This document shows, piece by piece, positions 48,942 to 61,423 of a stretch of DNA of 64,000 nt. How positions within the stretch are numbered: position 1 is the first letter of the stretch; each line of letters opens with the position of its first letter. The notes beneath the pieces were generated by a model. That model searched no databases and had not been told where the DNA came from. It was given only the letters and a program-made list of their open reading frames with translations. Both the position numbers and the translations under genes were made by a program. This stretch comes from Alloalcanivorax dieselolei B5. GTDB taxonomy: Bacteria > Pseudomonadota > Gammaproteobacteria > Pseudomonadales > Alcanivoracaceae. The stretch is taken from positions 4,359,001 to 4,423,000 of the forward strand of contig NC_018691.1 of NCBI RefSeq assembly GCF_000300005.1. The letters are read 5' to 3'.

Positions 48942-48980
48942 GATCGCGGTCCGTGGACCGCGATCCGTACTTAGTTTTTT
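48942..48980 (+). terminator. Terminator of mrcA
   Basis: A perfect 11-bp stem (GATCGCGGTCC / GGACCGCGATC) with a 2-nt loop is followed after nine bases by six T residues. The T tract coincides with the last codons of the convergent DKNYY gene. Confidence 0.6.
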
Positions 48981-50356
48981 AGCATTTCAACCCGGCGAAG
49001 AAACCTTCCACCTCCTTTTATGATCAGGAGCAGCACGGCAAGAAACACAAGAGTGTTCCGGGCGAAAACAGGAATGCCAACCCAATCGGGATTGCGGGTA
49101 TAGGCTTCACACTCATGCCCCCTCGCCAGCGGTTGCACTTCGTCCGATTCGTCCACGCCCCATAGGGCGGCCCGATCCCCGTCGGCGGGGTTGAAAAAAC
49201 GTTGGCCGTTGGATTGATACAGGTCCCCGGACACGGTTTTACCGAGCATCCGGTAATCGTGTTTTCCGATCAATTGAACGTCATCCGGGTCGGCCCCAGG
49301 CACCACTTCCAAGCCGCTGTACCAGCCGCGAAGCCCGCGAAAATAGCGCCCCTTTTTATAATCCCGGGCCGCCCAGGCATAGTACACATGCCGGTCATCC
49401 CGATAGAGCCCCCGCCCCAGCACTTCGATAGGCGCACTGGAATCCCGCCGGCACAGCGTTTTCAGTTCGTTGGTAAACGGCTGGTGGTAGTAAAACGTAT
49501 CACCTTGATAAAACAGAAAGTGCCAGCCGACGCTCTTGTCCGCCACCAACACTTTGAGGCCACCCGGTACCAGGGCCTGATCGGTGTCGGACACCCGGCC
49601 TGGCAACGCCTGATCCCCCAGGAAGTAGCGCTGTCCGTCATAGCCGTAATGGGTATCGTAGAGGATATTCCTGGGCTCCCCCCACACCTCGACCAGGGTG
49701 AACCGGGCCGGGCGCGCGCCCTCCACCACCCGGCCACGGTAGTACACCCGCCGGGCATCGCGAAGATAGTGTCCTTGCGCCAGGGTCGGCGCCTCCACGC
49801 CGACCCTGCTTAACGACGGAATATCCGCACCAGAGATCCAACGCCCCTGATAGTACAGGCGCTGATCGTCATGGGCGTAATCGTTCCAGAACACCCCATC
49901 GTTCTTGAACACTCGAAAGGTACCCGGATCGGCCCCATCCAGCAGGGTGGTCCCGTAGTACACCTTATCGCCGGCGAGATAGTAGTGCGCCTCCAGGTAA
50001 CGCACGCTATCCGGCGCCACGCCCGGCACCCGTTGGCCCAGCGCATAAAAGTGATCGCGGTCACGGCCCAAACCACTGTAGACATAACCCCTGCCGGTCT
50101 CCCCGGGCACCGGTTCGAAGGTATCCGCATCCGCCCCTTCCACCGGCTGATAGCCATCACCCGGGATTAGGAACCAAACCTGCCCGGCGTCATCACGGGC
50201 GTAACGGCTGCCGGGATAATCGCTGGGCTCCACTTCAGGGCCTTTCGGAGCAAGCATCAAATAGATCACCACGCCGCTGACCACACAGACCAGCAAAGCG
50301 ATGATCACGGCAACTTTGCCGCCGATCAGGCGCGCCCCTCTGTTTGTGTCACCCAA
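48971..50356 (-). CDS. DKNYY-family membrane-anchored protein (copy 1)
   Basis: About 461 residues. An N-terminal membrane segment (VAVIIALLVCVVSGVVIYLM) is followed by at least six degenerate 40-residue units with DKNYY-type cores such as VYYRGRVVEGARPARF, LYYQGRWISGADIPS and RYFLGDQALPG. A second hydrophobic segment (TLVFLAVLLLIIKGG) sits at the C-terminus. Probably a beta-propeller-like periplasmic repeat protein; its function is unknown. I prefer TTG 50356, behind GGAGG, because a perfect hairpin (50405-50426) lies within the longer frame that begins at 50482. Paralogue of the gene at 50574-51869. Confidence 0.7.
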   Translation of the reverse strand: MGDTNRGARLIGGKVAVIIALLVCVVSGVVIYLMLAPKGPEVEPSDYPGSRYARDDAGQVWFLIPGDGYQPVEGADADTFEPVPGETGRGYVYSGLGRDRDHFYALGQRVPGVAPDSVRYLEAHYYLAGDKVYYGTTLLDGADPGTFRVFKNDGVFWNDYAHDDQRLYYQGRWISGADIPSLSRVGVEAPTLAQGHYLRDARRVYYRGRVVEGARPARFTLVEVWGEPRNILYDTHYGYDGQRYFLGDQALPGRVSDTDQALVPGGLKVLVADKSVGWHFLFYQGDTFYYHQPFTNELKTLCRRDSSAPIEVLGRGLYRDDRHVYYAWAARDYKKGRYFRGLRGWYSGLEVVPGADPDDVQLIGKHDYRMLGKTVSGDLYQSNGQRFFNPADGDRAALWGVDESDEVQPLARGHECEAYTRNPDWVGIPVFARNTLVFLAVLLLIIKGGGRFLRRVEMLKN

Positions 50357-50404
50357 ACCCTCGACCCTCCGTGTGATGCCATATGCATAACTGCGAGACA
50401 GTAT

Positions 50405-50426
50405 AAACGCCGGACAGCCGGCGTTT
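50405..50426. other. Perfect 9-bp hairpin in the 5' region of DKNYY copy 1
   Basis: AAACGCCGG / CCGGCGTTT with a 4-nt loop. It is more likely part of the untranslated leader than coding, which supports the downstream TTG start. No T tract follows closely on the minus strand. Confidence 0.5.
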
Positions 50427-50480
50427 CCCGATAAAAAGTTCTTTGAGGAATGAGGGAGAAGGGAAGGGTTTCCTTTATCC

Positions 50481-50514
50481 AAAAAAACCGGAGAAAATCC
50501 CCCGGCTTTTTTTA
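50481..50514. terminator. Rho-independent terminator beside the stranded maeB tail
   Basis: AAAAAACCGG...CCGGCTTTTTTT forms a stem flanked by A and T runs, active in both directions. On the minus strand it stands 20 bp after the stop codon of the maeB tail at 50534-50575, where an original maeB terminator would be. Confidence 0.75.
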
Positions 50515-50533
50515 TGCTGCCCGCCGTCCCCGT

Positions 50534-50575
50534 TCACAACTCCGGGAAGATATCGTCCAGGGCTTTCAGCGGCTC
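50534..50575 (-). pseudogene. maeB: Stranded 3' end of maeB (13 codons plus stop)
   Basis: The complement encodes [13 protein letters not shown] and a TGA stop, matching the last residues of the intact maeB product at 60149-61423 ([13 protein letters not shown]). Twenty-two consecutive bases are identical. The upstream part of the gene is replaced by the DKNYY copy 2 gene, whose own stop codon (50574-50576) falls at the junction. Confidence 0.8.
50541..50562. repeat. Direct repeat, left copy
   Basis: Twenty-two bases beginning TCCGGGAAGATATCG are identical to 60156-60177. They bracket DKNYY copy 2 and the amide cassette and could be the product of site-specific or homologous recombination. 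Confidence 0.8.
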
Positions 50576-51869
50576 ACGAGCCGCGATCAATCATCCATTT
50601 CACCGCGCCCTTCAGATCATTGAGGAAACTCGAGCGGTTCGGGGATTCCGTATAAGCCCCACAGCGGCTGTCGTGCCGTAAGTGGCGCAGCTCACCGTTC
50701 TCGTCAAAGCCCATCAATGCCGCTTGATAGGACCCCGGCCCCTTGTGATTCAGACGAAAGAAGCGCTGACCATCGGCCTCGTACACGTCACCGCGCAGAG
50801 TGTGACCCGACCAGCGGTAACGTGCCTTTTCGATAAAACGGAACTGGTCGGGATCGACGTCCGGCACTACCGCCAAACCGCTGCTCCAACCCTGCAGCCC
50901 GCGCCCTCCGCCTCGGCTTTGCCGGTTCCAGTCCCATTCCACCCAGGCAAAGTACAGATGCCGGTCGTCACGGTAGAGCCCCTGCCCCAACGCCGCCATG
51001 GGAGCGCTGGAATCCCGCTGGCACAGCACCTTCACCGCATTGGTGAAAGGCTGATGGTAATAGACGGTGTCACCCTGATAGAACAGCAGGTGCCAGCCGA
51101 ATTCCTTGTCCGCCAGCAACAACCTGAAGCGGTCAGGGACAAGCGTCTGATCGGTGTCGGCCACCCGGTCCGGCAACACCTTGTCCTTGAAGAAATAGCG
51201 CTGACCATCGTAACCGTAGTGGTTGCCCCAGGTATCGCCCTCGACCCGGATCACGGTGAAGCTCCCCGGCACGGCTCCCTCCACAACCTTTCCCCGGTAG
51301 TAGACCCGGCCGGCGTCCTTGAGGTAATGGAAATCCGCCGGGGTCCGTTCCGTTACCGCCACTTCATCCAGGGAAGAAACGTCGGCGCCAGGAATCCACC
51401 GACCCTGGTAATACAGCCGCTGACCATCCTGCGCGTAATCGCCATGACGGATACCGATGTTGGCGGCATCGGCGCCGTCCAGCAATGTATTCCGGTAGTA
51501 CACGCGCTCATCGGTACGGTAATAATGCCGCCCCAGATAATGCACGGTGTCCGGGTTCACCTCCGGCTTGCGGTGTCCATCCACGTAGAAGTGCTCGCGG
51601 TCCCGGGCCAGACCACTATAGAAATAGCCTTTCCCGCTATCACCAGGCACGGGCTCGAAGGTTTCCGGATCGGCGCCCTCGACCAGATGATGGCCCTCCC
51701 CGTCCCGCAGAAACCAGATACGGCCGTCGTCATCATGGCTGTAGCGGCTCACCGGATAATCGGTGCGGGCCACCTTGGGCTCTTCCCCAGGGTCCAGCAA
51801 CAGCATCAACGCGACGATCAACGCCAGAATCGTCATGACCCAGACCAAACCTTGCCACCGTCCTTTCAT
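50574..51869 (-). CDS. DKNYY-family membrane-anchored protein (copy 2)
   Basis: A 431-residue paralogue of the gene at 48971-50356, with the same plan: an N-terminal membrane segment (LVWVMTILALIVALMLLLD), a D-Y-P-V-S-R-Y linker and repeated VYYRNTLLDGADA / LYYQGRWIPGADVSS / VYYRGKVVEGAVPGSF units. The C-terminal membrane segment of copy 1 is missing. ATG 51869 (MKGRWQG) is preferred over 51890. Its stop overlaps the stranded maeB tail. Function unknown. Confidence 0.72.
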   Translation of the reverse strand: MKGRWQGLVWVMTILALIVALMLLLDPGEEPKVARTDYPVSRYSHDDDGRIWFLRDGEGHHLVEGADPETFEPVPGDSGKGYFYSGLARDREHFYVDGHRKPEVNPDTVHYLGRHYYRTDERVYYRNTLLDGADAANIGIRHGDYAQDGQRLYYQGRWIPGADVSSLDEVAVTERTPADFHYLKDAGRVYYRGKVVEGAVPGSFTVIRVEGDTWGNHYGYDGQRYFFKDKVLPDRVADTDQTLVPDRFRLLLADKEFGWHLLFYQGDTVYYHQPFTNAVKVLCQRDSSAPMAALGQGLYRDDRHLYFAWVEWDWNRQSRGGGRGLQGWSSGLAVVPDVDPDQFRFIEKARYRWSGHTLRGDVYEADGQRFFRLNHKGPGSYQAALMGFDENGELRHLRHDSRCGAYTESPNRSSFLNDLKGAVKWMIDRGS

Positions 51870-51982
51870 TGGCTCCCCTTTTGCTTGCAACGGGTACTCA
51901 TGATCTCAACCTGATTTTCGACGCCAGCACCACCACCGCGTCGAGCCAATATCGTGACCATCAAGAAACTTGCGACGCGGTC

Positions 51983-52011
51983 TTTACAGCGTGAGACAAC
52001 ATATCTAGGAT
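51983..52011 (+). promoter_or_regulatory. Promoter of the amide cassette
   Basis: TTTACA (51983-51988), 17 bp, TAGGAT (52006-52011): five of six and four of six matches to the sigma70 consensus with optimal spacing. The start of transcription would leave a leader of about 200 nt. Confidence 0.55.
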
Positions 52012-52094
52012 CTTAAGTGAAATCATAGTGTCATTTTTAGCCTCAGCATTTCGCCCCGCGCCAAGAACGCCGTGGGTCAGGCCTTCCGTTTCAG

Positions 52095-52183
52095 ACGTCA
52101 CCAATCGCGCTGGCGTTATTTCATACCCAATACATTGCAATCACCCGCGCCGGTCCGGATGCGTCCGTCCCTAATGGCGGGCG
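52095..52183 (+). promoter_or_regulatory. Two-hairpin leader, candidate antiterminator target
   Basis: Hairpin 1 (52095-52116) has an 8-pair stem with one mismatch and loop AATCGC. Hairpin 2 (52162-52183) has an 8-pair stem including G-U pairs and loop CCTAAT. ANTAR proteins bind paired hairpins with 6-nt loops having A at position 1 and G at position 4. Only loop 1 has the A and neither has the G, so the assignment is tentative. No T tract follows hairpin 2. Confidence 0.3.
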
Positions 52184-52217
52184 GTGAGCAATGGCCGATT
52201 GTTACAGTGGAGATCCC

Positions 52218-53441
52218 ATGAAACTGACCCGTCGTCAGGTGTTGGCCGCCTTTGGTGCCGCCACCGCCATGAGCTTTACCTCCCGTCTTGCCGCGCAAGG
52301 AGCCCCGATCACCGTATCGGCGCTTTATGACCTGTCCGGCGGCCTTGAATCCTACGGTCAGCCGATCGTCGATGCATTGCGCTTCGCCGTGGAAGAGCAG
52401 AACGCCAAGGGCGGCCTGCTGGGCCGCGAGATCAAGCTAAATGTCTATGACCCGCAATCAAACATGCAGCGTTACGCGCAATTCGCCCGTCAGGCCGCGC
52501 TGTCGGATAAGCCCGCGGTGGTCTTCGCGGGCATTACCTCGGCCTCACGAGAGGTGGTGCGACCGATCATGCGCCAGTTCAACACGCTTTACTTTTACGC
52601 CAACCAATATGAGGGCGGCGTCTGCGACCGCAACATGTTCGCGACCGGCGTGACGCCCGGTCAGACAGTCGAGAAGCTGGTGAACTATTCGGCCAAGAAC
52701 CACGGCGGCAAGGTCTATATCGTCGCGGCCGATTACAACTATGGCCAGATCATCGCGGACTGGGTGAAGAAATATACCGCCGATAACGGCGGCGAGGTCC
52801 TGGGCGTCGAATTCTTCCCGATGGATGTGACCGATTTCAAGACTTCGATCTCGAAGATCCAGGCCGCCAAGCCGGATTATGTCTGGTCGGCATTGGTGGG
52901 CGGGGCTCATATTTCCTTTTATCGTCAGTGGAAGGCGGCAGGCATGCTGGGCAAGATCCCGATGTCCTCGACCACCTTCGCCGGCGGCAATGAGCATGTG
53001 ATTCTGACGCCCGAGGAATCCAACGGCATTATGGTCTGCCAGAATTATCTGCAAGAGCTGGATAATCCGTTGAACAAGCAATTCGTGGCTGACTTTCACG
53101 CCAGGTTCGGTGCCGATTACCCCTACATCACCGAACTGGGCGTAGGTGCCTATCAGGGATTTCGCCTGTGGGTAGCCGGCGTGGAGAAGGCGGGCACCGT
53201 GGATCGCCTGCCGGTCATCAAGGCACTGGAATCCGGTATCTCGCTCGAGGCGCCGAGCGGTCGTATCAGCATCGACCCGAAAACTCATCACACCACGATG
53301 GATGTGCATATCGCCCGGGTCGAGAACGGCGGGTTGCTCCCGGTCGAGACCTTCGAGCAGCAGCCTCCCGCGGATACCGCCATGGTTTGCGATCTGATCG
53401 CGAACCCGGATGACAATCAGCAATACGTCATCGATTTCTAA
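52218..53441 (+). CDS. Urea/short-chain amide ABC transporter substrate-binding protein (UrtA/FmdD-like)
   Basis: A 407-residue type I periplasmic binding protein. A twin-arginine signal (LTRRQVLAAFGAA, cleaved near SRLAAQG) directs export. The core ALYDLSGGLESYGQP... and LVGGAHISFYRQWKAAG match the UrtA/FmdD amide-binding family. ATG 52218 begins a proper Tat signal. First gene of the cassette; it delivers amide or urea to the permeases encoded next. Codon use resembles Rhodobacterales more than the window's housekeeping genes. Confidence 0.88.
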   Translation: MKLTRRQVLAAFGAATAMSFTSRLAAQGAPITVSALYDLSGGLESYGQPIVDALRFAVEEQNAKGGLLGREIKLNVYDPQSNMQRYAQFARQAALSDKPAVVFAGITSASREVVRPIMRQFNTLYFYANQYEGGVCDRNMFATGVTPGQTVEKLVNYSAKNHGGKVYIVAADYNYGQIIADWVKKYTADNGGEVLGVEFFPMDVTDFKTSISKIQAAKPDYVWSALVGGAHISFYRQWKAAGMLGKIPMSSTTFAGGNEHVILTPEESNGIMVCQNYLQELDNPLNKQFVADFHARFGADYPYITELGVGAYQGFRLWVAGVEKAGTVDRLPVIKALESGISLEAPSGRISIDPKTHHTTMDVHIARVENGGLLPVETFEQQPPADTAMVCDLIANPDDNQQYVIDF

Positions 53442-53450
53442 GGAAGGCAG

Positions 53451-54320
53451 ATGGATTTCGCGTCAATCCTCATAATCGAAATTCTCGGGTCCATCGCCAT
53501 TCTGGTGCTGATCAGTATCGGCCTGGCGGTGGTCTTCGGGATGATGAAGGTCATCAACATGGCCCACGGCGAGTTTCTCATGCTCGGCGGCTATGTCACC
53601 ATCTATGGCACCAACCATGGCGGCCTCAGCTTCTGGGTGAGTTCGCTGATTCTTGCCCCCATCGTGGTGGGGTTGATCGGGCTTTTGCTGGAATGGCTGG
53701 TCATCCGCCATCTCTACGGACGTATGATCGATACCATGCTGGCGACCTGGGGCATCAGCCTTGCCCTGATCGGCGGCATGACCATGCTGGTGGGCAATAC
53801 CACCACGGGAATTTCGACGCCACTGCCCAGCGTGAGCATCGGCGAGTTTTCCGTCAGCGGCTATGTGATGTTCCTGATCGCGCTGGCCATTATGGTCTTT
53901 GCCCTGCTTTATGTGCTGTTCAAGCTGACCACATTCGGCCTTCTGGCGCGGGCGACCACGCAGAACGCCGATATGGTGGCGGCACTTGGCGGCAACCCGC
54001 GTCGCATTTATGCGTTGACCTTTGGGCTTGGAGCGGCGCTCGCGGGCCTGGGCGGCGCGGCGCTTGCGCCGCTGACCGGGGTGATCCCGACTATCGGCGC
54101 CTCCTATATCGCCAAAGCCTTTATTACCGTGATCTCTGGCGGTTTCGCCGTGATCGCCGGCAACCTCTCGGCGGCAACTTTGTTTGGCACCGTCGGCCAG
54201 GTCTTCACTTATCTATACACACCCGTCATCGGCGAAGTGGCTCTTCTGCTGACCGCGATCGTACTGATCCGCCTTCTGCCCAAGGGCATCACCGGGCGCT
54301 TTTTCCGGAGGTCGATCTGA
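53451..54320 (+). CDS. Amide/urea ABC transporter permease (UrtB/LivH type)
   Basis: A 289-residue LivH-like inner-membrane permease with about eight helices (IAILVLISIGLAVVFGMMKV, MAHGEFLMLGGYV). The motif GLLARATTQNADMVAALGGNP is the coupling loop to the ATPase. It starts 10 bp after the binding-protein gene and overlaps the next start (TGATG). Confidence 0.88.
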   Translation: MDFASILIIEILGSIAILVLISIGLAVVFGMMKVINMAHGEFLMLGGYVTIYGTNHGGLSFWVSSLILAPIVVGLIGLLLEWLVIRHLYGRMIDTMLATWGISLALIGGMTMLVGNTTTGISTPLPSVSIGEFSVSGYVMFLIALAIMVFALLYVLFKLTTFGLLARATTQNADMVAALGGNPRRIYALTFGLGAALAGLGGAALAPLTGVIPTIGASYIAKAFITVISGGFAVIAGNLSAATLFGTVGQVFTYLYTPVIGEVALLLTAIVLIRLLPKGITGRFFRRSI

Positions 54321-55324
54321 TGGCACGTCTTCTGCAATCCGGCGGCCTTATTGCCGTGCTTGCGCTGGGCATGGTGATGCCGGGCTGGCTTGAATTGTTC
54401 ACCATTTATGAAATCACTATTTATCTGATCATGGCGGTGCTGGCGCTGAGCCTTGCCTTCATCTGGGGCAAGGGCGGCATTATGTGCCTGGGCCAGGCCG
54501 CGTTCTTCGGCCTTGGCGCCTATGCCTGGGCGGTGGCGGCGATCAACTTCGGCCCCGGCCTCCCGGCCATTGCCATCGCCATCGCCGTTCCAGCTCTGTT
54601 CGCCGCGGTGCTCGGCTATTTCATGTTCTACGGCCGGATCAACGACATCTATATCGGCGTGATCACCCTGGCGGTGACGCTGATCTTGTTCAATCTGATT
54701 AACTCCACCTCGGGGCCACAGTACCGCATCGGCTCCGCTCTGCTCGGCGGCTTCAACGGCATGACCAGCGTGCCAACCCTGACCTGGCCGGGCGGCACGC
54801 CGCTCGGGCCGGCGGATATCTTCCGTCTTACCGTGGCCGTGCTGGTCACTTCGATAGTCGCCATCTCACTTTACCTGAAGACCACACCAGGCAAAGTCGT
54901 GATCGCCGTGCGCGAGAACGAATATCGGGCCGAGCTTCTGGGCTATCACGTGGCGCGCTCGAAGCTGGTCACCTTCACCCTGGGAGGGGCGTTGGCGGGG
55001 CTTGGCGGCTGTCTCTTCGCCAATTGGGGCGCCTTTGTCAGTCCGACGATTTTCAGCCTGGTGCAATCGGCTCAGATCATCATCTGGGTGATTGTAGGTG
55101 GCCGGGGGACACTGGTTGGGCCGATCCTGGGCTGCATCGCGCTGCAATGGGCTACCACCAAGCTCGGCACTCAGCAGGTAGTGCAGGTCAATCTGGTGTT
55201 GGGCGTGGTGCTGGCTTTCTTCGTGCTGGTCGTGCCGCAGGGCATCCAGCCGATGATCACCAAAGCTCTGCGTCCGCTGTTCCGGCGCGAAACGAAACCC
55301 GCCACCAAGGAGCGCCTGACATGA
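54320..55324 (+). CDS. Amide/urea ABC transporter permease (UrtC/LivM type)
   Basis: A 334-residue LivM-like permease (LALSLAFIWGKGGIMCLGQA, then AVRENEYRAELLGYHV as coupling loop). The start ATG shares a base with the preceding stop, and the stop overlaps the ATPase start by ATGA. The true start is 54320; the longer open frame upstream overlaps the first permease gene. Confidence 0.87.
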   Translation: MARLLQSGGLIAVLALGMVMPGWLELFTIYEITIYLIMAVLALSLAFIWGKGGIMCLGQAAFFGLGAYAWAVAAINFGPGLPAIAIAIAVPALFAAVLGYFMFYGRINDIYIGVITLAVTLILFNLINSTSGPQYRIGSALLGGFNGMTSVPTLTWPGGTPLGPADIFRLTVAVLVTSIVAISLYLKTTPGKVVIAVRENEYRAELLGYHVARSKLVTFTLGGALAGLGGCLFANWGAFVSPTIFSLVQSAQIIIWVIVGGRGTLVGPILGCIALQWATTKLGTQQVVQVNLVLGVVLAFFVLVVPQGIQPMITKALRPLFRRETKPATKERLT

Positions 55325-56052
55325 GCGGAGAAATCATCCTTCAGGCCCGCGGCCTTGGCATCAGCTTCGGCGCCGTCGATGCAGTCAAGGCAGTGGATTT
55401 CGATCTGCGTCAGGGCGAGTTGCGCTGTCTGATCGGACCCAATGGCGCGGGCAAGACAACTTTCTTTCGACTTCTCAGCGGGCAATATCCGCCCACACGC
55501 GGGACGATCACCTTCAAGGGCAAGTCGCTGAATGCGCTGCAGCCCTATCAGATTGCCCGGCTTGGGATCGGCGTCAAGACTCAGGTACCAAGCCTGTTCG
55601 AGGGCTTGAGCGTGGCCGAGAACATTGACATGGCGGCTCGTCGGCGCGCCAAGGGACGGGCGGTCAAGGTGATTGTCAATGAGGTGCTGGAGCAAATCGG
55701 CCTGGCCGATCTGCGGGACCGCGCCTGCGCCGAGCTGGCGCATGGGCAGCGACAATGGGTCGAGCTTGGCCAGATCCTCGCTTCTAAACCCGCCGTGGCG
55801 CTCCTGGATGAACCGGCGGCAGGTATGACCCACGACGAAAGCCTGAAGACAGTGCGGATCATCCGCGACATCACCCGCGAAAGCGCGGTGATCGTGGTCG
55901 AGCATGACATGGATTTCATCCGGCTGATTGGTGAGCGCGTCACCGTCTTCGAACGTGGCACGGTGATCGCCGAGGGCAGCTTCGACGAGATCGCAAAGGA
56001 CCCGCAAGTACGGGCGGCTTATCTGGGACGAGAGAGAAACACCAATGTTTGA
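55321..56052 (+). CDS. Amide/urea ABC transporter ATPase (UrtD/LivG type)
   Basis: A 243-residue ABC ATPase. Walker A is GPNGAGKTT, the signature is degenerate (LAHGQRQWVE rather than LSGGQ, as usual for UrtD), Walker B is VALLDEPAAGM and the H-loop VVEHDMDF. It overlaps both neighbouring genes. Confidence 0.88.
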   Translation: MSGEIILQARGLGISFGAVDAVKAVDFDLRQGELRCLIGPNGAGKTTFFRLLSGQYPPTRGTITFKGKSLNALQPYQIARLGIGVKTQVPSLFEGLSVAENIDMAARRRAKGRAVKVIVNEVLEQIGLADLRDRACAELAHGQRQWVELGQILASKPAVALLDEPAAGMTHDESLKTVRIIRDITRESAVIVVEHDMDFIRLIGERVTVFERGTVIAEGSFDEIAKDPQVRAAYLGRERNTNV

Positions 56053-56749
56053 GGTGAAGGGCTTGTCATCGGGTTATGGTCGCGTGCCGGTGCTGCGTGA
56101 GGTGGATTTCTCGCTCGCGCAGGGTGAATGCATCGGGTTTCTGGGGCGCAACGGTATGGGCAAGACCACGCTTCTGCGCGCCATCATGGGCGAACTGCCG
56201 ACCTGGAGCGGAGAGATCCGCAAAGCCGGCCAGTCGCTGAACGGCAAGAGCACCCAGGCTCGCGCAAGGGCCGGGATTGGCTATGTTCCACAGGGCAAGC
56301 AGCTTTTCAAATTGCTGACGGTGGAAGAAAACCTGCGTATGGGTTGCGTGAAGAATTTCCGTGGCGCCGAGGTGAAGGTGGCGCAAGTACTGGATCTTTT
56401 CCCGCGGCTCGTGCCGCTGCTGGACCGGCAGGCGGGCATGCTTTCAGGAGGGGAGCAGCAACTTCTGGCGCTTGGCCGCTGCCTCTGTGGCGATCCCGAC
56501 CTGATCCTGCTGGACGAACCGACCGAGGGCATTCAGCCCTCTATCTGCGACGAGATCATCGACGTGCTGATCCAGCTGCGCAAGGAACGCAACCTCTCGA
56601 TCATGCTGGTCGAACAGGACATCGATTTCCTCTGGTCGATCTGCGACCACATTCTGGCGGTCGATAAGGGCAGCGTGGTCAAGACCATCGATCCGAAGGC
56701 CGAAGGATCGACGGAACAGGCCAAAGCATTCATCGGTATCGAGGGCTGA
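56045..56749 (+). CDS. Amide/urea ABC transporter ATPase (UrtE/LivF type)
   Basis: A 234-residue ABC ATPase with Walker A GRNGMGKTT, signature LSGGEQQLL, Walker B LILLDEPTEGI and H-loop LVEQDIDF. It completes the five-gene Urt/Fmd-like importer. It overlaps the previous gene by eight bases and is followed after 3 bp by the amidase. Confidence 0.88.
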   Translation: MFEVKGLSSGYGRVPVLREVDFSLAQGECIGFLGRNGMGKTTLLRAIMGELPTWSGEIRKAGQSLNGKSTQARARAGIGYVPQGKQLFKLLTVEENLRMGCVKNFRGAEVKVAQVLDLFPRLVPLLDRQAGMLSGGEQQLLALGRCLCGDPDLILLDEPTEGIQPSICDEIIDVLIQLRKERNLSIMLVEQDIDFLWSICDHILAVDKGSVVKTIDPKAEGSTEQAKAFIGIEG

Positions 56750-56752
56750 AAC

Positions 56753-58267
56753 GTGACGATTCGTAAACCGCAATATGAAGACCTGCTTGCCGCAGATCAG
56801 GCTCTCGGTCTTGGGATTTCCAAAGCAGATATCCAGGCTTTCACCGAGCTACTGGAGGAGGTCAGCCATGACTATGCCATCGTCGATGCGCTGACACCGG
56901 AACTGCCGGAGGTACGCTATCCGCGCACGCCTGGACATTACCCCGCGCCGGCGGAAAACCCCTACAATGCCTGGTATGTAAAGTCCGAGGTGAAGGGCCG
57001 CCCGGGCGGGCAGCTTGAAGGGCTGAACCTCGCGCTGAAAGACAATGTCATGCTCGCGGGTGTGCCAATGATGGCCGGCGCCTCGAGCTTGCGCGGTTAT
57101 ACCCCCGATGTGGACGCGACGTTGGTCACCCGTCTTCTGGATCAGGGGGCAACTATCCTGGGTAAGGCGCAATGCGAATATTTCTGCGTCTCGGGCAGCA
57201 GCCACACCAGCGCGCAAGGGCCGGTCAAAAATCCCTGGGACGAGGCCCGATCAGCGGGTGGCTCATCCTCGGGCTGCTCGGCGCTGGTCTCGGCCGGGCT
57301 GGTCGACGCGGCTATTGGCACCGACCAGGGCGGCTCGGTCCGCATTCCGGCCGCCTATGCCGGTTTTGTCGGCATGAAGCCGACCCATGGTGTTGTCCCA
57401 TATACCGGGGTGATGCCGGTCGAGATGACGTTGGACCATGCCGGGGTGATGTCGGGTGACGTGCGCACCAATGCACGCGTGCTCGAGGCGATCGTCGGCG
57501 ATGACGGGCTTGACCCGCGCCAACGCCGGTTGCCGGACAGTTTCGACTATCTTTCGCAGTTGGAGGCGGGCGCCACGGGACTGCGCATTGCGATCATCGC
57601 CGAGGGCTTCGGCTGGGAAAACTCAGAGGAGGAGGTTGATGCGGCGGTGCGCGCCGGTGCCGAGCGTCTACGCAGTCTTGGCGCCACGGTGGACCAGGTC
57701 AGCCTGCCCCTGCACCGCAAGGGCCATGCGATCTGGACTCCGATTGCTATTGAAGGCACGGCAAACCAGCTGGAAGGGTTCAACTACGGCTCAAATTGGA
57801 AGGGGCTTTACGTCACCAGCCTGATGCGGGCGCAGCAGGACTGGCGGGCGAACGCCTCGGATTTTCCCGCCGATGTGACATCAGTGCTGCTTGCCGCGCA
57901 TTATTTCCGGGGACACTATCATGGCCAGTATTACGCCAAGGCCCAGAACCTGGTTCGCCGGTTGAAGGCGGCCTATGAGGCGGTGCTTGCGGACTATGAC
58001 TTGCTCCTGATGCCAACAGTTCCCCTGAAGGCGCCCCGATTGCCTGACCCGGGCTGCGGCGCGCGGGAGTGGGTCGGCCGCGCGCTGGAAATGAACACCA
58101 ATACCGCCCCCTTCAATGCGACCGGCCTGCCCGCGATCAGTGTGCCCTGCGGCATGGCCCAGGGACTGCCCGTAGGCATGATGCTGATCGGACGGGATTA
58201 CACCGAAGCCACGCTTTACCGCGCTGCCGCCGCCTATGAAGCGGCCTTTGACTGGAAGACGCTTTGA
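56753..58267 (+). CDS. Amidase (amidase-signature family)
   Basis: A 504-residue amidase-signature hydrolase with a GTG start. The Ser-cisSer-Lys triad is complete and correctly spaced: Lys96 (LALKDN), Ser171 (GGSSSG) and Ser195 (DQGGSVR). The spacings of 75 and 24 residues equal those of fatty-acid amide hydrolase. It should release ammonia and a carboxylate from the amide imported by the transporter. It is unlike the nitrilase-type AmiE that usually accompanies AmiC/AmiR. Its stop overlaps the next start. Confidence 0.9.
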   Translation: MTIRKPQYEDLLAADQALGLGISKADIQAFTELLEEVSHDYAIVDALTPELPEVRYPRTPGHYPAPAENPYNAWYVKSEVKGRPGGQLEGLNLALKDNVMLAGVPMMAGASSLRGYTPDVDATLVTRLLDQGATILGKAQCEYFCVSGSSHTSAQGPVKNPWDEARSAGGSSSGCSALVSAGLVDAAIGTDQGGSVRIPAAYAGFVGMKPTHGVVPYTGVMPVEMTLDHAGVMSGDVRTNARVLEAIVGDDGLDPRQRRLPDSFDYLSQLEAGATGLRIAIIAEGFGWENSEEEVDAAVRAGAERLRSLGATVDQVSLPLHRKGHAIWTPIAIEGTANQLEGFNYGSNWKGLYVTSLMRAQQDWRANASDFPADVTSVLLAAHYFRGHYHGQYYAKAQNLVRRLKAAYEAVLADYDLLLMPTVPLKAPRLPDPGCGAREWVGRALEMNTNTAPFNATGLPAISVPCGMAQGLPVGMMLIGRDYTEATLYRAAAAYEAAFDWKTL

Positions 58268-59418
58268 TGCAACCTCTGAATACTCATCTTGAGGGCTGGC
58301 CGGTCGGCCTTCTGTTCTCGCGAGAAAGCCAGACGAAAGCGGTCGAATATACCCAGGCCTGCGCAACACTTCTGGCCATTGACGAGGTGAATGAGGCTGG
58401 CGGGATCAACGGGGTTCCATTGGTCCCCCGCCAATTGCCCATCGGCCCGCTCCCGAATGATTATCGCCTCGCGGCCGAACGGCTCTGCGACGAAGAGGAT
58501 GTGCGAGTGCTGTTCGGTACTCATATGTCCAATTCACGCAAGGCGGTGCTGCCGCTACTGGAAAGCCGCCAGGCGCTGCTGTTGTATCCGACACTCTACG
58601 AGGGCTTTGAATTCTCGCAGAACTGCATCTATACGGGCGCGGCGCCGAATCAGAATTCGGTACAGTTGGCACGGCATCTGCTGCGCCACCATGGATCACG
58701 AGCGTTCTTCATCGGTAACAACTATGTCTTTGCCCATGAATCGAACCGGATCATGCGTGATTTGTTCGAACAGGCCGATGGCAGTGTCGTGGGCGAATAT
58801 TATCTGCCCTTCGATGCCTCGGACGAGGATCTGTCGGCGGTTATGGCCGAGGTCGAGAAGCAACGCCCCGATTTCATCTATTCGACCGTGGTCGGTAGCG
58901 ACATAATCCGGCTGCACGAGGCCTTCGCCCGCACCCGGGTCCGTGCCGGCGGCGGGGTGATCACAAGCCTTGCCACCAACGAGTCCGACCTGGCGCAGAT
59001 GAGCGCGGATCTCTCCGAGGGCTTCCTGGTCGCCGCACCTTGGTTCGCCACGCTGGACAACCCGGAAAGCCGCGCCTTCCTTCAGGGTATGCGCGCCCGT
59101 TTCGGTGCGGATATACCGGTGACCTCGGGGGCGGAAGCCGCCTATTTCCAGGTCCACCTGTTCGCCCGAGCCGCCCGCGAGGCAGGAGAAGCTACGCTGG
59201 AAGCCGTGCTGGACCAGCTTGGCGCGGTATCCTTTGATGCACCGGAAGGTCCAGTTAAGCTGGACGCGGCCACACACCACACCTGGCTCTGGTCCCGGAT
59301 CGGACGGGTTGATGCACGAAATGCGTTCGAGGTGATCGAAGTGGAGAAAAATCCGATCAAACCCGAACCCTATATGGTGGAACACAGCTTTGGGGATGCG
59401 ATGACCGGCCATGCCTAA
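58267..59418 (+). CDS. AmiC-like amide sensor, negative regulator of antitermination
   Basis: A 383-residue type I periplasmic-binding fold with no signal peptide (start MQPLNTHLEGWPVGLLFS), as in cytoplasmic AmiC of Pseudomonas. It is clearly homologous to the cassette's exported binding protein (shared LDNP...ARFGAD and THHT segments near the C-terminus). By analogy it sequesters the AmiR-like protein until an amide binds. ATG 58267 shares a base with the amidase stop. Confidence 0.85.
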   Translation: MQPLNTHLEGWPVGLLFSRESQTKAVEYTQACATLLAIDEVNEAGGINGVPLVPRQLPIGPLPNDYRLAAERLCDEEDVRVLFGTHMSNSRKAVLPLLESRQALLLYPTLYEGFEFSQNCIYTGAAPNQNSVQLARHLLRHHGSRAFFIGNNYVFAHESNRIMRDLFEQADGSVVGEYYLPFDASDEDLSAVMAEVEKQRPDFIYSTVVGSDIIRLHEAFARTRVRAGGGVITSLATNESDLAQMSADLSEGFLVAAPWFATLDNPESRAFLQGMRARFGADIPVTSGAEAAYFQVHLFARAAREAGEATLEAVLDQLGAVSFDAPEGPVKLDAATHHTWLWSRIGRVDARNAFEVIEVEKNPIKPEPYMVEHSFGDAMTGHA

Positions 59419-60046
59419 AACCACCGGGAAGCCGAAGATCAGTGATCTGAAAGGCATGAGGGTTCTGGTGCTGCTCCCCCCGGGGAGCGAGGCCGAGGGT
59501 CTGATGACCCATTTGGTCCGTATCGGCTGTCTGCCCCGGCTTTACTGGCCGATCCCCCAGACCCTGCCCGAGGATATCGACGTGATCATTGTTACCGTCG
59601 ATTCCGGTGCCCGCGCTGATGTGCGAGGACTGGCCGGCCAACTGACTGACCTCAGCCCACCGGTCATCGCGCTGGTCGGTTACGAGGACCCCTCGACGTT
59701 GCAGATGGTACTGGAGCTGCGCGCCGCCGCGGTGATCGAACGGCCGGTCAAGCCCTTCGGCCTTCTCACGAATCTCATGATCAGCCGCGATGTCCGACAG
59801 CGCCGGCGCCAGAATATCCAACGCATCGCCGAGACCGAGAACCGCCATCTTGCGCTTTCCACCGTCGAGGTGGCCAAGATCATCCTATGCCATGTGCAAA
59901 AAATGGAGATGAGCCAGACCCACCGCTATTTGCAGAAAGCAGCGATGGACAGCCGTAATTCGATAGAGGCGGTCGCTGAGCGCATCATCAGCGAAAATGC
60001 CAGCCAGGCCGTGTCGCCGAAACCACTGCCGGAGGGAGAAGAGTGA
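59411..60046 (+). CDS. AmiR-like ANTAR-domain transcription antiterminator
   Basis: A 211-residue protein. A pseudo-receiver domain (about 14-130, MRVLVLLPPGSEAEGLMTHL), a coiled coil (about 130-150, RRRQNIQRIAETENRH) and a C-terminal ANTAR three-helix domain (about 153-200, VEVAKIILCHVQKMEMSQTH, MDSRNSIEAVAERII) match AmiR. It should bind the leader RNA and permit read-through when released by the AmiC-like protein. It overlaps that gene by eight bases. Last gene of the cassette. Confidence 0.85.
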   Translation: MPKTTGKPKISDLKGMRVLVLLPPGSEAEGLMTHLVRIGCLPRLYWPIPQTLPEDIDVIIVTVDSGARADVRGLAGQLTDLSPPVIALVGYEDPSTLQMVLELRAAAVIERPVKPFGLLTNLMISRDVRQRRRQNIQRIAETENRHLALSTVEVAKIILCHVQKMEMSQTHRYLQKAAMDSRNSIEAVAERIISENASQAVSPKPLPEGEE

Positions 60047-60105
60047 CCCACCACGCCCTCACTTCGCGAACCAGGCCACCGCGCGCCCCTGCCTGAAGGA
60101 CCCAC

Positions 60106-60137
60106 CCCAAAAGTGCTGCCCAACTGAATCGGGCAGC
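60106..60137 (-). terminator. Hairpin between the amide cassette and maeB
   Basis: A 7-bp stem GCTGCCC / GGGCAGC, followed on the minus strand by ACTTTT, can end maeB transcription. It differs from the A/T-flanked terminator left beside the stranded maeB tail at 50481-50514. Confidence 0.45.
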
Positions 60138-60148
60138 GGCGACACGCC

Positions 60149-61423
60149 TTACAGTTCCGGGAAGATATCGTCCAGGGACTTGAGCGGGTAGTGAGACGGG
60201 TAGCCTTTGCGGGCGACGCCGGAATCCACCGCGGCACGGGCCACGGCGGCGGAGACCCGGCCCAGCAGGCGCGGATCGTTGGGCTTGGGAATGATGTATT
60301 CCGGACCGAAGTTCAACGGCTCGCCACCATAGGCTTCCAGTACCTCCTGGGGCGGCGCCTCACGGACCAGCTCGGCGATGGCGTGAACCGCCGCCAGCTT
60401 CATGTCCTCGTTGATGGAGGTGGAGCGCACGTCCAGGGCTCCGCGGAACATGTACGGGAAGCACAGAACATTATTGACCTGGTTCGGATAGTCGGAGCGG
60501 CCGGTAGCGATGATGGCATCGGCACGGGCGGCCTTGGCCACTTCCGGGCGGATTTCCGGGTCCGGGTTGGCCAGCGCGAAGATGATCGGTTTGTCGGCCA
60601 TCTTCTTCACCATTTCCGGCGTCAGCATATCCGGGCCGGACACACCGATGAACACATCGGCGCCCTCGATGGCGTCATCCAGAGTGCGCTTGTCGGTGTC
60701 GTTGGCCAGCGCCGCTTTGTACTGGTTAAGATCATCACGGCGGTTGTGGATCACACCTTTGCGGTCCAATACCAGGATGTTTTCCTTGCGCGCGCCCATT
60801 TCAATCAACAACCGCACGGAAGCAACACCGGCGGCGCCGGCACCGACGCACACCACCTTGATATCCCCGATGCGCTTGTTCTGGATTTCCAGCGCGTTGA
60901 GCAACCCGGCGCCGACCACGATGGCGGTACCATGCTGATCATCATGGAACACCGGCACGTCGCAGATTTCCTTGAGTACGCGTTCGATCTCGAAGCATTC
61001 CGGCGCACGGATATCTTCCAGGTTGATACCGCCAAAGGTGGTATGAATGCGCACCACGGTATCAATGAACGCCTGCGGATCCTCCGCTTCCACTTCGATG
61101 TCGAACACATCAATGCCGGCGAACAGCTTGAACAGGATGCCCTTGCCTTCCATCACCGGCTTGGAAGCCAGCGCGCCCAGATTGCCCAATCCCAGGATGG
61201 CGGTGCCATCACTGATCACCGCCACCAGGTTGCCTTTGGCGGTAAAACGGTAAGCCAGCTCCGGTTCGCGCGCGATTTCACGCACCGGTTCTGCTACGCC
61301 GGGGCTATAGGCCAAGCTGAGGTCACGACTGGTTTTCGCGCTTTTGGTCACCTCGACGCTGATCTTCCCTGGACGTGGTTTGGCATGATAATCCAGGGCC
61401 GCCTTCTTGAAATCCTCGGACAT
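60149..61423 (-). CDS. maeB: NAD(P)-dependent malic enzyme (short form)
   Basis: A 424-residue enzyme that decarboxylates malate to pyruvate. [15 protein letters not shown], the NAD(P) loop [13 protein letters not shown] and [12 protein letters not shown] are conserved. It lacks the C-terminal phosphotransacetylase domain of the 760-residue MaeB. Its last 13 codons recur at 50534-50575, so its 3' end was duplicated or replaced during a rearrangement. Confidence 0.94.
60156..60177. repeat. Direct repeat, right copy
   Basis: Identical to 50541-50562 over 22 bases, inside the 3' end of intact maeB; similarity continues imperfectly for about 12 bases into maeB. Confidence 0.8.

Follow-up and report, generated by a model that had tools for sequence, protein, structure and literature searches.

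The window analysed here is a stretch of 64,000 nt from the genome of Alloalcanivorax dieselolei B5 (a single contig of 4,928,223 bases), and our subject is a cassette of eight plus-strand genes at 51983-60046 of this window, for an ABC transporter, an amidase, an AmiC-like sensor and an AmiR-like antiterminator. The cassette was acquired horizontally from a Rhodobacterales lineage close to a plasmid of Paracoccus methylovorus, and we read it as an amide-scavenging operon for which the likeliest substrate is an omega-hydroxy-amide, with 4-hydroxybutyramide as first choice; we put the probability of this reading at about one half. A hydroxy-amide is proposed because an alcohol dehydrogenase gene follows amiR in related loci, several of these dehydrogenases group with BlcB of Agrobacterium, a blc-like module lies near the cassette in this genome, and the sensor has a distinctive His/Leu pair.

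The eight products were assigned to families by Pfam and NCBIfam profile scans, and the genes stand in the order first described. The first (52218-53441) encodes the ABC binding protein (Peripla_BP_6/BP_5; best NCBIfam model urea_ABC_arch with 356.6 bits, below the cut-off of 494.8). It had been called Tat-exported, and its N-terminus, MKLTRRQVLAAFG, does by eye look like a Tat-type leader. There follow two BPD_transp_2 permeases, one of UrtB/LivH type (53451-54320; UrtB models below cut-off) and one of UrtC/LivM type (54320-55324; UrtC models below cut-off), and two ATPases, one of UrtD/LivG type (55321-56052; ABC_tran and BCA_ABC_TP_C, with Walker A and B present) and one of UrtE/LivF type (56045-56749; ABC_tran, with Walker A and B and LSGGEQ present). 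The amidase-signature hydrolase (56753-58267, GTG start; Amidase PF01425) scores 690.6 bits against NF005565/PRK07235, for which the cut-off is 545; its closest solved chains are 3a1k and 3a1i, both titled Amidase, and K96, S171 and S195, which we take to be the catalytic residues, are invariant in all 29 amidases aligned. The sensor gene starts at 58264 or 58267 and ends at 59418 (residue numbers are counted from 58264), and its product is a Peripla_BP_5 protein, by eye without a leader, that is 42.5% identical to P. aeruginosa AmiC (1pea, E=3.5e-95). The last gene (59411-60046) encodes an AmiR_N and ANTAR protein that matches AmiR (1qo0_D) at E=1.3e-21. A role in amide sensing, uptake and hydrolysis is well supported by these family assignments and solved homologues, and here the preliminary description was right. 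It was nearly right in calling the eight genes tightly overlapping, as five of the seven junctions overlap by 1-8 nt and the other two are gaps of 9 and 3 nt.

With regard to origin, in each of the eight protein trees the window protein is sister to that of the P. methylovorus plasmid (locus L019), with support of 0.78-0.99 for the sister pair, followed by Pseudogemmobacter and Paracoccus shanxieyensis and then by other Rhodobacterales, some of the deeper nodes being weak. None of the eight is placed with vertically inherited relatives. By megablast, plasmid p1 of P. methylovorus covers 94% of the query at 85.1% identity, and there are partial matches on Thioclava and Shinella plasmids, 7 records altogether. 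The leader was transferred too: local alignment to the upstream DNA of the P. methylovorus plasmid extends from about 51963, scoring 98 where 100 shuffles gave no more than 36. A search of 46 genomes of the family for the amidase at E<=1e-100 found it in the source genome and in none of the other 45. Flanking genes without a cassette between them are seen in the close relatives G001, G011 and G012, and in G002 and G008 a cassette-free stretch of about 100 bases separates the PBP1a gene from maeB. Vertical descent was rejected on the trees, these empty sites and the occurrence of the amidase in a single genome of the family.

The composition of the cassette is also foreign and Paracoccus-like in comparison with its surroundings. 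Five of the eight genes have a codon use more like that of Paracoccus than any of the 75 own genes compared; the remaining three are exceeded by own genes, the binding protein gene by 1, amiR by 5 and permease 2, the least clear case, by 12 of the 75. The tetranucleotide distance between cassette and flank is 0.203, against 0.146 +/- 0.011 (maximum 0.170) for 8-kb slices of the flanks. The preliminary description had suggested an alphaproteobacterial donor from codon use, and this is correct, because of the agreement of all eight trees, the absence of the amidase from the rest of the family and the insert-free relatives; it can now be narrowed to Rhodobacterales, and an alphaproteobacterial plasmid is the most likely donor.

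The window copy ends at amiR. The right junction (60047-60148) is DNA unlike that of the sister genome, reaching to the maeB stop codon, where the unshared DNA starts, and the terminator-like hairpin that G001 has 3' of maeB is missing at 60047-60149. Among 20 of the 31 direct repeat families listed there was no convincing repeat at the cassette borders. On the other side, two minus-strand genes that resemble each other, which we take to be of the DKNYY family, lie at 48971-51890 between the PBP1a gene and the cassette. Each of G001, G011 and G012 has a pair of homologues in the reverse order, and G002 and G008 have no match, so that this is a variable spot.

Related loci came from an amidase search of genome contigs (the best 80 of 88 confirmed stretches), with loci added from plasmids and 8 from a family search. 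The amidase adjoins AmiC and AmiR in 22 loci besides the window (L019-L028, L064 and L132-L142), and 20 of them have the identical eight-gene order. Of the other two, L024 has its ABC genes 3' of a dehydrogenase gene, with one permease unmatched, and L140 has no ABC match within the stretch examined. L140, on an Alloyangia plasmid, keeps the amidase, AmiC and AmiR genes followed by those for a succinate-semialdehyde dehydrogenase (SSADH) and an iron alcohol dehydrogenase (FeADH), and upstream, in the place taken by the ABC set in others, it has divergent genes for a TRAP transporter. Carriers include alphaproteobacteria (Paracoccus, Thioclava, Hoeflea), betaproteobacteria (Achromobacter, Paracidovorax) and gammaproteobacteria (Pseudomonas, Marinomonas). 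It is a rare cassette. Of 394 genomes sampled from the family of G047, G047 alone had its AmiR at E<=1e-40, and of 250 sampled from the family of G052, nine, with G052 among them, had its amidase at E<=1e-170.

The ami operon of P. aeruginosa consists of amiEBCRS. The cassette is like it in having an AmiC-like sensor and an AmiR/ANTAR regulator 3' of the hydrolase gene, and unlike it in having an amidase-signature enzyme and not the nitrilase-type AmiE, a five-part ABC transporter and not AmiS, and a sensor with His and Leu at the positions of Tyr83 and Pro107. It had been suggested that the enzyme and transporter of a Pseudomonas-type operon were replaced, and this is not borne out. Elsewhere the source genome carries an aliphatic amidase AmiE (716 bits, cut-off 427) with a Clp-like ATPase, AmiC and AmiR, this AmiC being 82.5% identical to that of P. 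aeruginosa. As the classic operon is retained, nothing has been replaced in this genome, which has two amide switches, and the cassette, with its conserved gene order, is a separate lineage.

An FeADH gene is present 3' of amiR in 16 of the 22 related loci (L019, L021, L022, L024, L027, L028, L064, L132-L139 and L140), which include alpha-, beta- and gammaproteobacterial ones. It is lacking in L020, L023, L025, L026, L141 and L142, the genome with L023 having a copy at another place, and also in the window. It is thus doubtful that the cassette is self-contained, as the preliminary description had it, for in most relatives the set continues into the alcohol dehydrogenase, which the window copy is without. 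In L019, L021 and L140 an SSADH gene stands between amiR and the FeADH gene, that of L019 passing the SSADH model TIGR01780 with 706.5 bits (cut-off 646.35), and in L064 a semialdehyde dehydrogenase gene is found further on, by eye next to a gabT-like gene; none was matched in the Achromobacter-type loci. The FeADH gene was found in none of 14 loci, some of them short contigs, that have ABC genes and this amidase but no such AmiC/AmiR pair (L029, L030, L032, L035-L038, L040, L047, L086, L091, L093, L099 and L100; the partial-set loci L031, L043 and L068 were left out of the scan), nor in six with other AmiC types (L071, L072, L082-L084 and L116) or three classic ami loci (L113-L115).

The source genome does have a related dehydrogenase (G000:C1:4435013-4436176), 77% identical to the Paracoccus one. 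Upstream of it are a semialdehyde dehydrogenase gene and a divergent gene for an IclR-type regulator, and this blcR-blcA-blcB-like module starts 13.6 kb past the end of the cassette, in a clean empty site by comparison with G001, G011 and G012. The best solved match of the regulator is BlcR (3mq0, 212 bits, the next being 76), and it is 49% identical to BlcR of Agrobacterium C58. The dehydrogenase is 68% identical to C58 BlcB and the SSADH 69% identical to C58 BlcA, the latter comparison being of identity only, with no BlcA tree. In the dehydrogenase tree a group with support of 0.90 includes C58 BlcB, our dehydrogenase, those of L019, L021, L022 and L140, several from Rhodobacterales plasmids and one from Rhizobium; our protein and those of the four loci are 67-71% identical to C58 BlcB. 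At E<=1e-120 the blcB-like dehydrogenase is present in one of 13 genomes of the genus. In three Thioclava strains the cassette and a 75.8% identical dehydrogenase are carried by separate plasmids, and in Thioclava sp. GXIMD4216, the sole one of the three inspected gene by gene, the second plasmid carries IclR, SSADH and FeADH genes together. In the Rhizobium locus L174 this set of genes is accompanied by that for AttM lactonase.

In the case of the sensor, alignment to P. aeruginosa AmiC shows that all 23 cassette sensors, that of the window included, have His at the position of Tyr83 and Leu at that of Pro107 (H87 and L111 in the window), while Ser85, Tyr104, Thr106 and Tyr150 of AmiC are retained in the window and the other cassette sensors. 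The same His/Leu pair occurs in an Agrobacterium sensor (L145). The AmiC of the genome's own classic operon and two similar ones from congeners have Tyr and Pro, the L058 sensor has Leu but retains Tyr, and the remaining sensors have other pairs. In L071, L072 and L082-L084 the residues at AmiC positions 83, 104, 106 and 107 are Tyr, His, Ala and Arg; in these five loci AmiC-like genes point away from two amidase genes and an ABC transporter, and four of the loci have an AmiR match. L116, from the congener G004, is a further ABC-amidase-AmiC-AmiR set; its amidase is a different one (AtzE-like by its best model, below the cut-off), and its AmiC is of another type.

We suggest that the operon works as follows. 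The ABC transporter with its Tat-type binding protein would import the amide, and the amidase-signature enzyme would free ammonia and a carboxylic acid. With amide bound, the AmiC-like sensor would release the AmiR-like protein, leading to antitermination of the operon's own transcript. The available text of PMC5924552 describes BlcABC as taking gamma-butyrolactone to gamma-hydroxybutyrate (GHB) and on to succinic semialdehyde. The cassette loci L019, L021 and L140 resemble the Agrobacterium blcRABC (attJKLM) genes in having BlcA- and BlcB-type enzymes after amiR, as does our genome in its blcR-blcA-blcB-like module. The difference is that the source genome has no match to the BlcC lactonase at E<=1e-5 (in a search without a positive control), and the amidase would make the GHB. 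With an amidase in place of the lactonase, the gene neighbours lead us to 4-hydroxybutyramide as the amide. The amidase would convert it to GHB, and BlcB-type alcohol and BlcA-type semialdehyde dehydrogenases would take this to succinate, the oxidising enzymes being encoded after amiR in several donors and here by the insertion about 14 kb away. Other hydroxy-amides are possible, more so for the Achromobacter-type loci.

A fuller proposal is that of a dedicated hydroxy-amide route, in which the AmiC/AmiR switch would have been retuned by two pocket changes and the importer and amidase would feed GHB to BlcB and BlcA, with the parts kept together in some Rhodobacterales (two of the loci being on plasmids) and assembled here from two acquisitions about 14 kb apart. 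We offer it tentatively, at somewhat less than an even chance.

Several observations weigh against the hydroxy-amide reading. A comparison of whole genomes speaks for it, the dehydrogenase being matched at E<=1e-90 in six of eight cassette genomes and in none of 13 chosen non-cassette genomes with the amidase family, but these 13 include distant phyla and metagenome-assembled genomes. Two Pseudomonas genomes that carry all eight genes are without a dehydrogenase of this kind. Seven of the cassette dehydrogenases (L019, L021, L022, L024, L027, L028 and L064) were scored and are below every NCBIfam cut-off, that for 4-hydroxybutyrate dehydrogenase included, so any assignment of their substrates is tentative, and those of the Achromobacter-type and the Hoeflea, Marinomonas and Agrobacterium loci fall in non-BlcB clades. 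Dehydrogenases 54-58% identical to ours are present at E<=1e-120 in 19 of the 33 family genomes outside the genus (the six of them placed in the tree are outside the BlcB group), and at E<=1e-70 BlcB-like dehydrogenases are found in 212 plasmid records, several without a cassette nearby. As they are so common, co-occurrence in one genome says little. The Rhodobacterales plasmids L171, L172, L173 and L175 have such genes in other settings with cassette-free surroundings. Moreover the DNA of our blc-like module is 72.5% identical to that of L019, against 85% for the cassette, and its codon use is host-like; the two were therefore probably acquired separately, and a single joint transfer is disfavoured on both counts. 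A megablast search of plasmids with our dehydrogenase region gave no match. Finally, that Tyr83 and Pro107 line the acetamide pocket of AmiC is our assumption, and a literature search on the AmiC pocket residues gave nothing useful.

The leader provides a further point of this kind. The promoter and untranslated leader (51963-52217, plus strand), presumably the AmiR target, have TTTACA at 51983-51988, the first base of which is also the first base of our interval, then 17 nt and TAGGAT at 52006-52011. By eye this arrangement of TTTACA, 17 nt and a -10 block is common to L019, L021, L022 and L064, and it was unseen in the other upstream regions compared. An ANTAR target is, in the available text of PMC3369931, a pair of hairpins with A at position 1 and G at position 4 of the loop. 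In the window leader (230 nt scanned, 350 for the others) neither a hexaloop hairpin with A1 and G4 nor the double ANTAR hairpin was found, and by eye a hairpin at the corresponding place is without the loop G. Taken singly, hairpins of this kind with 6 or more stem pairs occur in 12 of 21 leaders (L019, L025, L026, L028 and L132-L139), which amount to about three lineages, the start used for L027 being uncertain; in shuffles of five leaders, the window and amiE control ones among them, the frequency was 3.5-7.6%. The scan for two hairpins picked up a single pair, that of L019, whose linker is 19. The control, the leader of the genome's own amiE, gave one hairpin of 4 pairs rather than two, so the scan is a weak one, and we infer antitermination from AmiR alone. 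No Rfam family was matched within the operon at a relaxed threshold, shuffled sequences fold as well as the window leader does (z -0.63), and eight Rhodobacterales and Hoeflea leaders, when aligned, gave no consensus fold. The nine Achromobacter-type leaders, which are close relatives of one another, have a perfect six-pair hairpin with the loop AACGGC in 7 and AACGAC in 2.

The abundance of BlcB-like dehydrogenases on plasmids, and the homology of AmiC and AmiR to the acetamide switch, would also fit a generalist system acting on short aliphatic amides (acetamide, propionamide, formamide), the dehydrogenase and blc genes then being neighbours unrelated to it, and in the available text of PMC13209695 an amiE-amiC-amiR operon with an ABC transporter is described from a plasmid, in a strain with acetamidase activity. 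We consider such a system unlikely here, given that these amides are already served by the classic amiE operon of the genome, that two positions set the sensor apart in all 23 cassettes, and that the dehydrogenase follows amiR in loci from three classes of Proteobacteria.

An amide derived from a nitrile, aromatic or aliphatic, is a less probable substrate still. Related amidases (L143 and L144, about 51-53% identical) are encoded next to nitrile hydratase on Klebsiella and Pantoea plasmids, in Pantoea also close to a gene of the phenylacetaldoxime dehydratase family, and the solved chains 3a1k and 3a1i named above would fit as well. However the examined stretches of the 22 cassette loci gave no match to NthA or NthB, and we have set a nitrile cluster aside for this reason; the cassette also differs from the nitrile-hydratase-linked amidases in having its own sensor and transporter. 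A urea uptake and degradation system is very improbable and was also set aside, for although Urt models are the best NCBIfam matches of all five transporter parts, all five are below the Urt cut-offs, and the hydrolase, the only one among the eight genes, is an amidase far under the allophanate hydrolase cut-offs.

The combination of AmiC and AmiR with an ABC transporter and other hydrolases is known elsewhere, from L145 and from the available part of PMC13209695. The operon in that source, a Klebsiella plasmid acetamidase operon, is like the cassette in having AmiC, AmiR and an ABC transporter and in being plasmid-borne, and unlike it in having an AmiE-type hydrolase and a four-gene ABC transporter (cluster 5 of its authors). 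L145 of Agrobacterium shares with the cassettes AmiR, a Urt-like ABC transporter and an iron alcohol dehydrogenase as well as the His/Leu sensor, and differs in that its hydrolase is nitrilase-related and its regulator genes come first. A set similar to that of L145 is on pAtC58 (L176), with no dehydrogenase listed and with the sensor outside the alignment. For the version with an amidase-signature enzyme and for the link to blc, no description was found among the literature matches listed, subscription papers being mostly outside the search.

The cassette is a clear case of a metabolic operon moving between classes of Proteobacteria. If our reading is correct, it would predict a definite substrate for an amide operon that occurs in three of these classes, and amide scavenging would be tied to the GHB and gamma-butyrolactone pathway of Agrobacterium. 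The cassette sensors would then also provide natural AmiC variants with a two-residue signature for the study of ligand choice.

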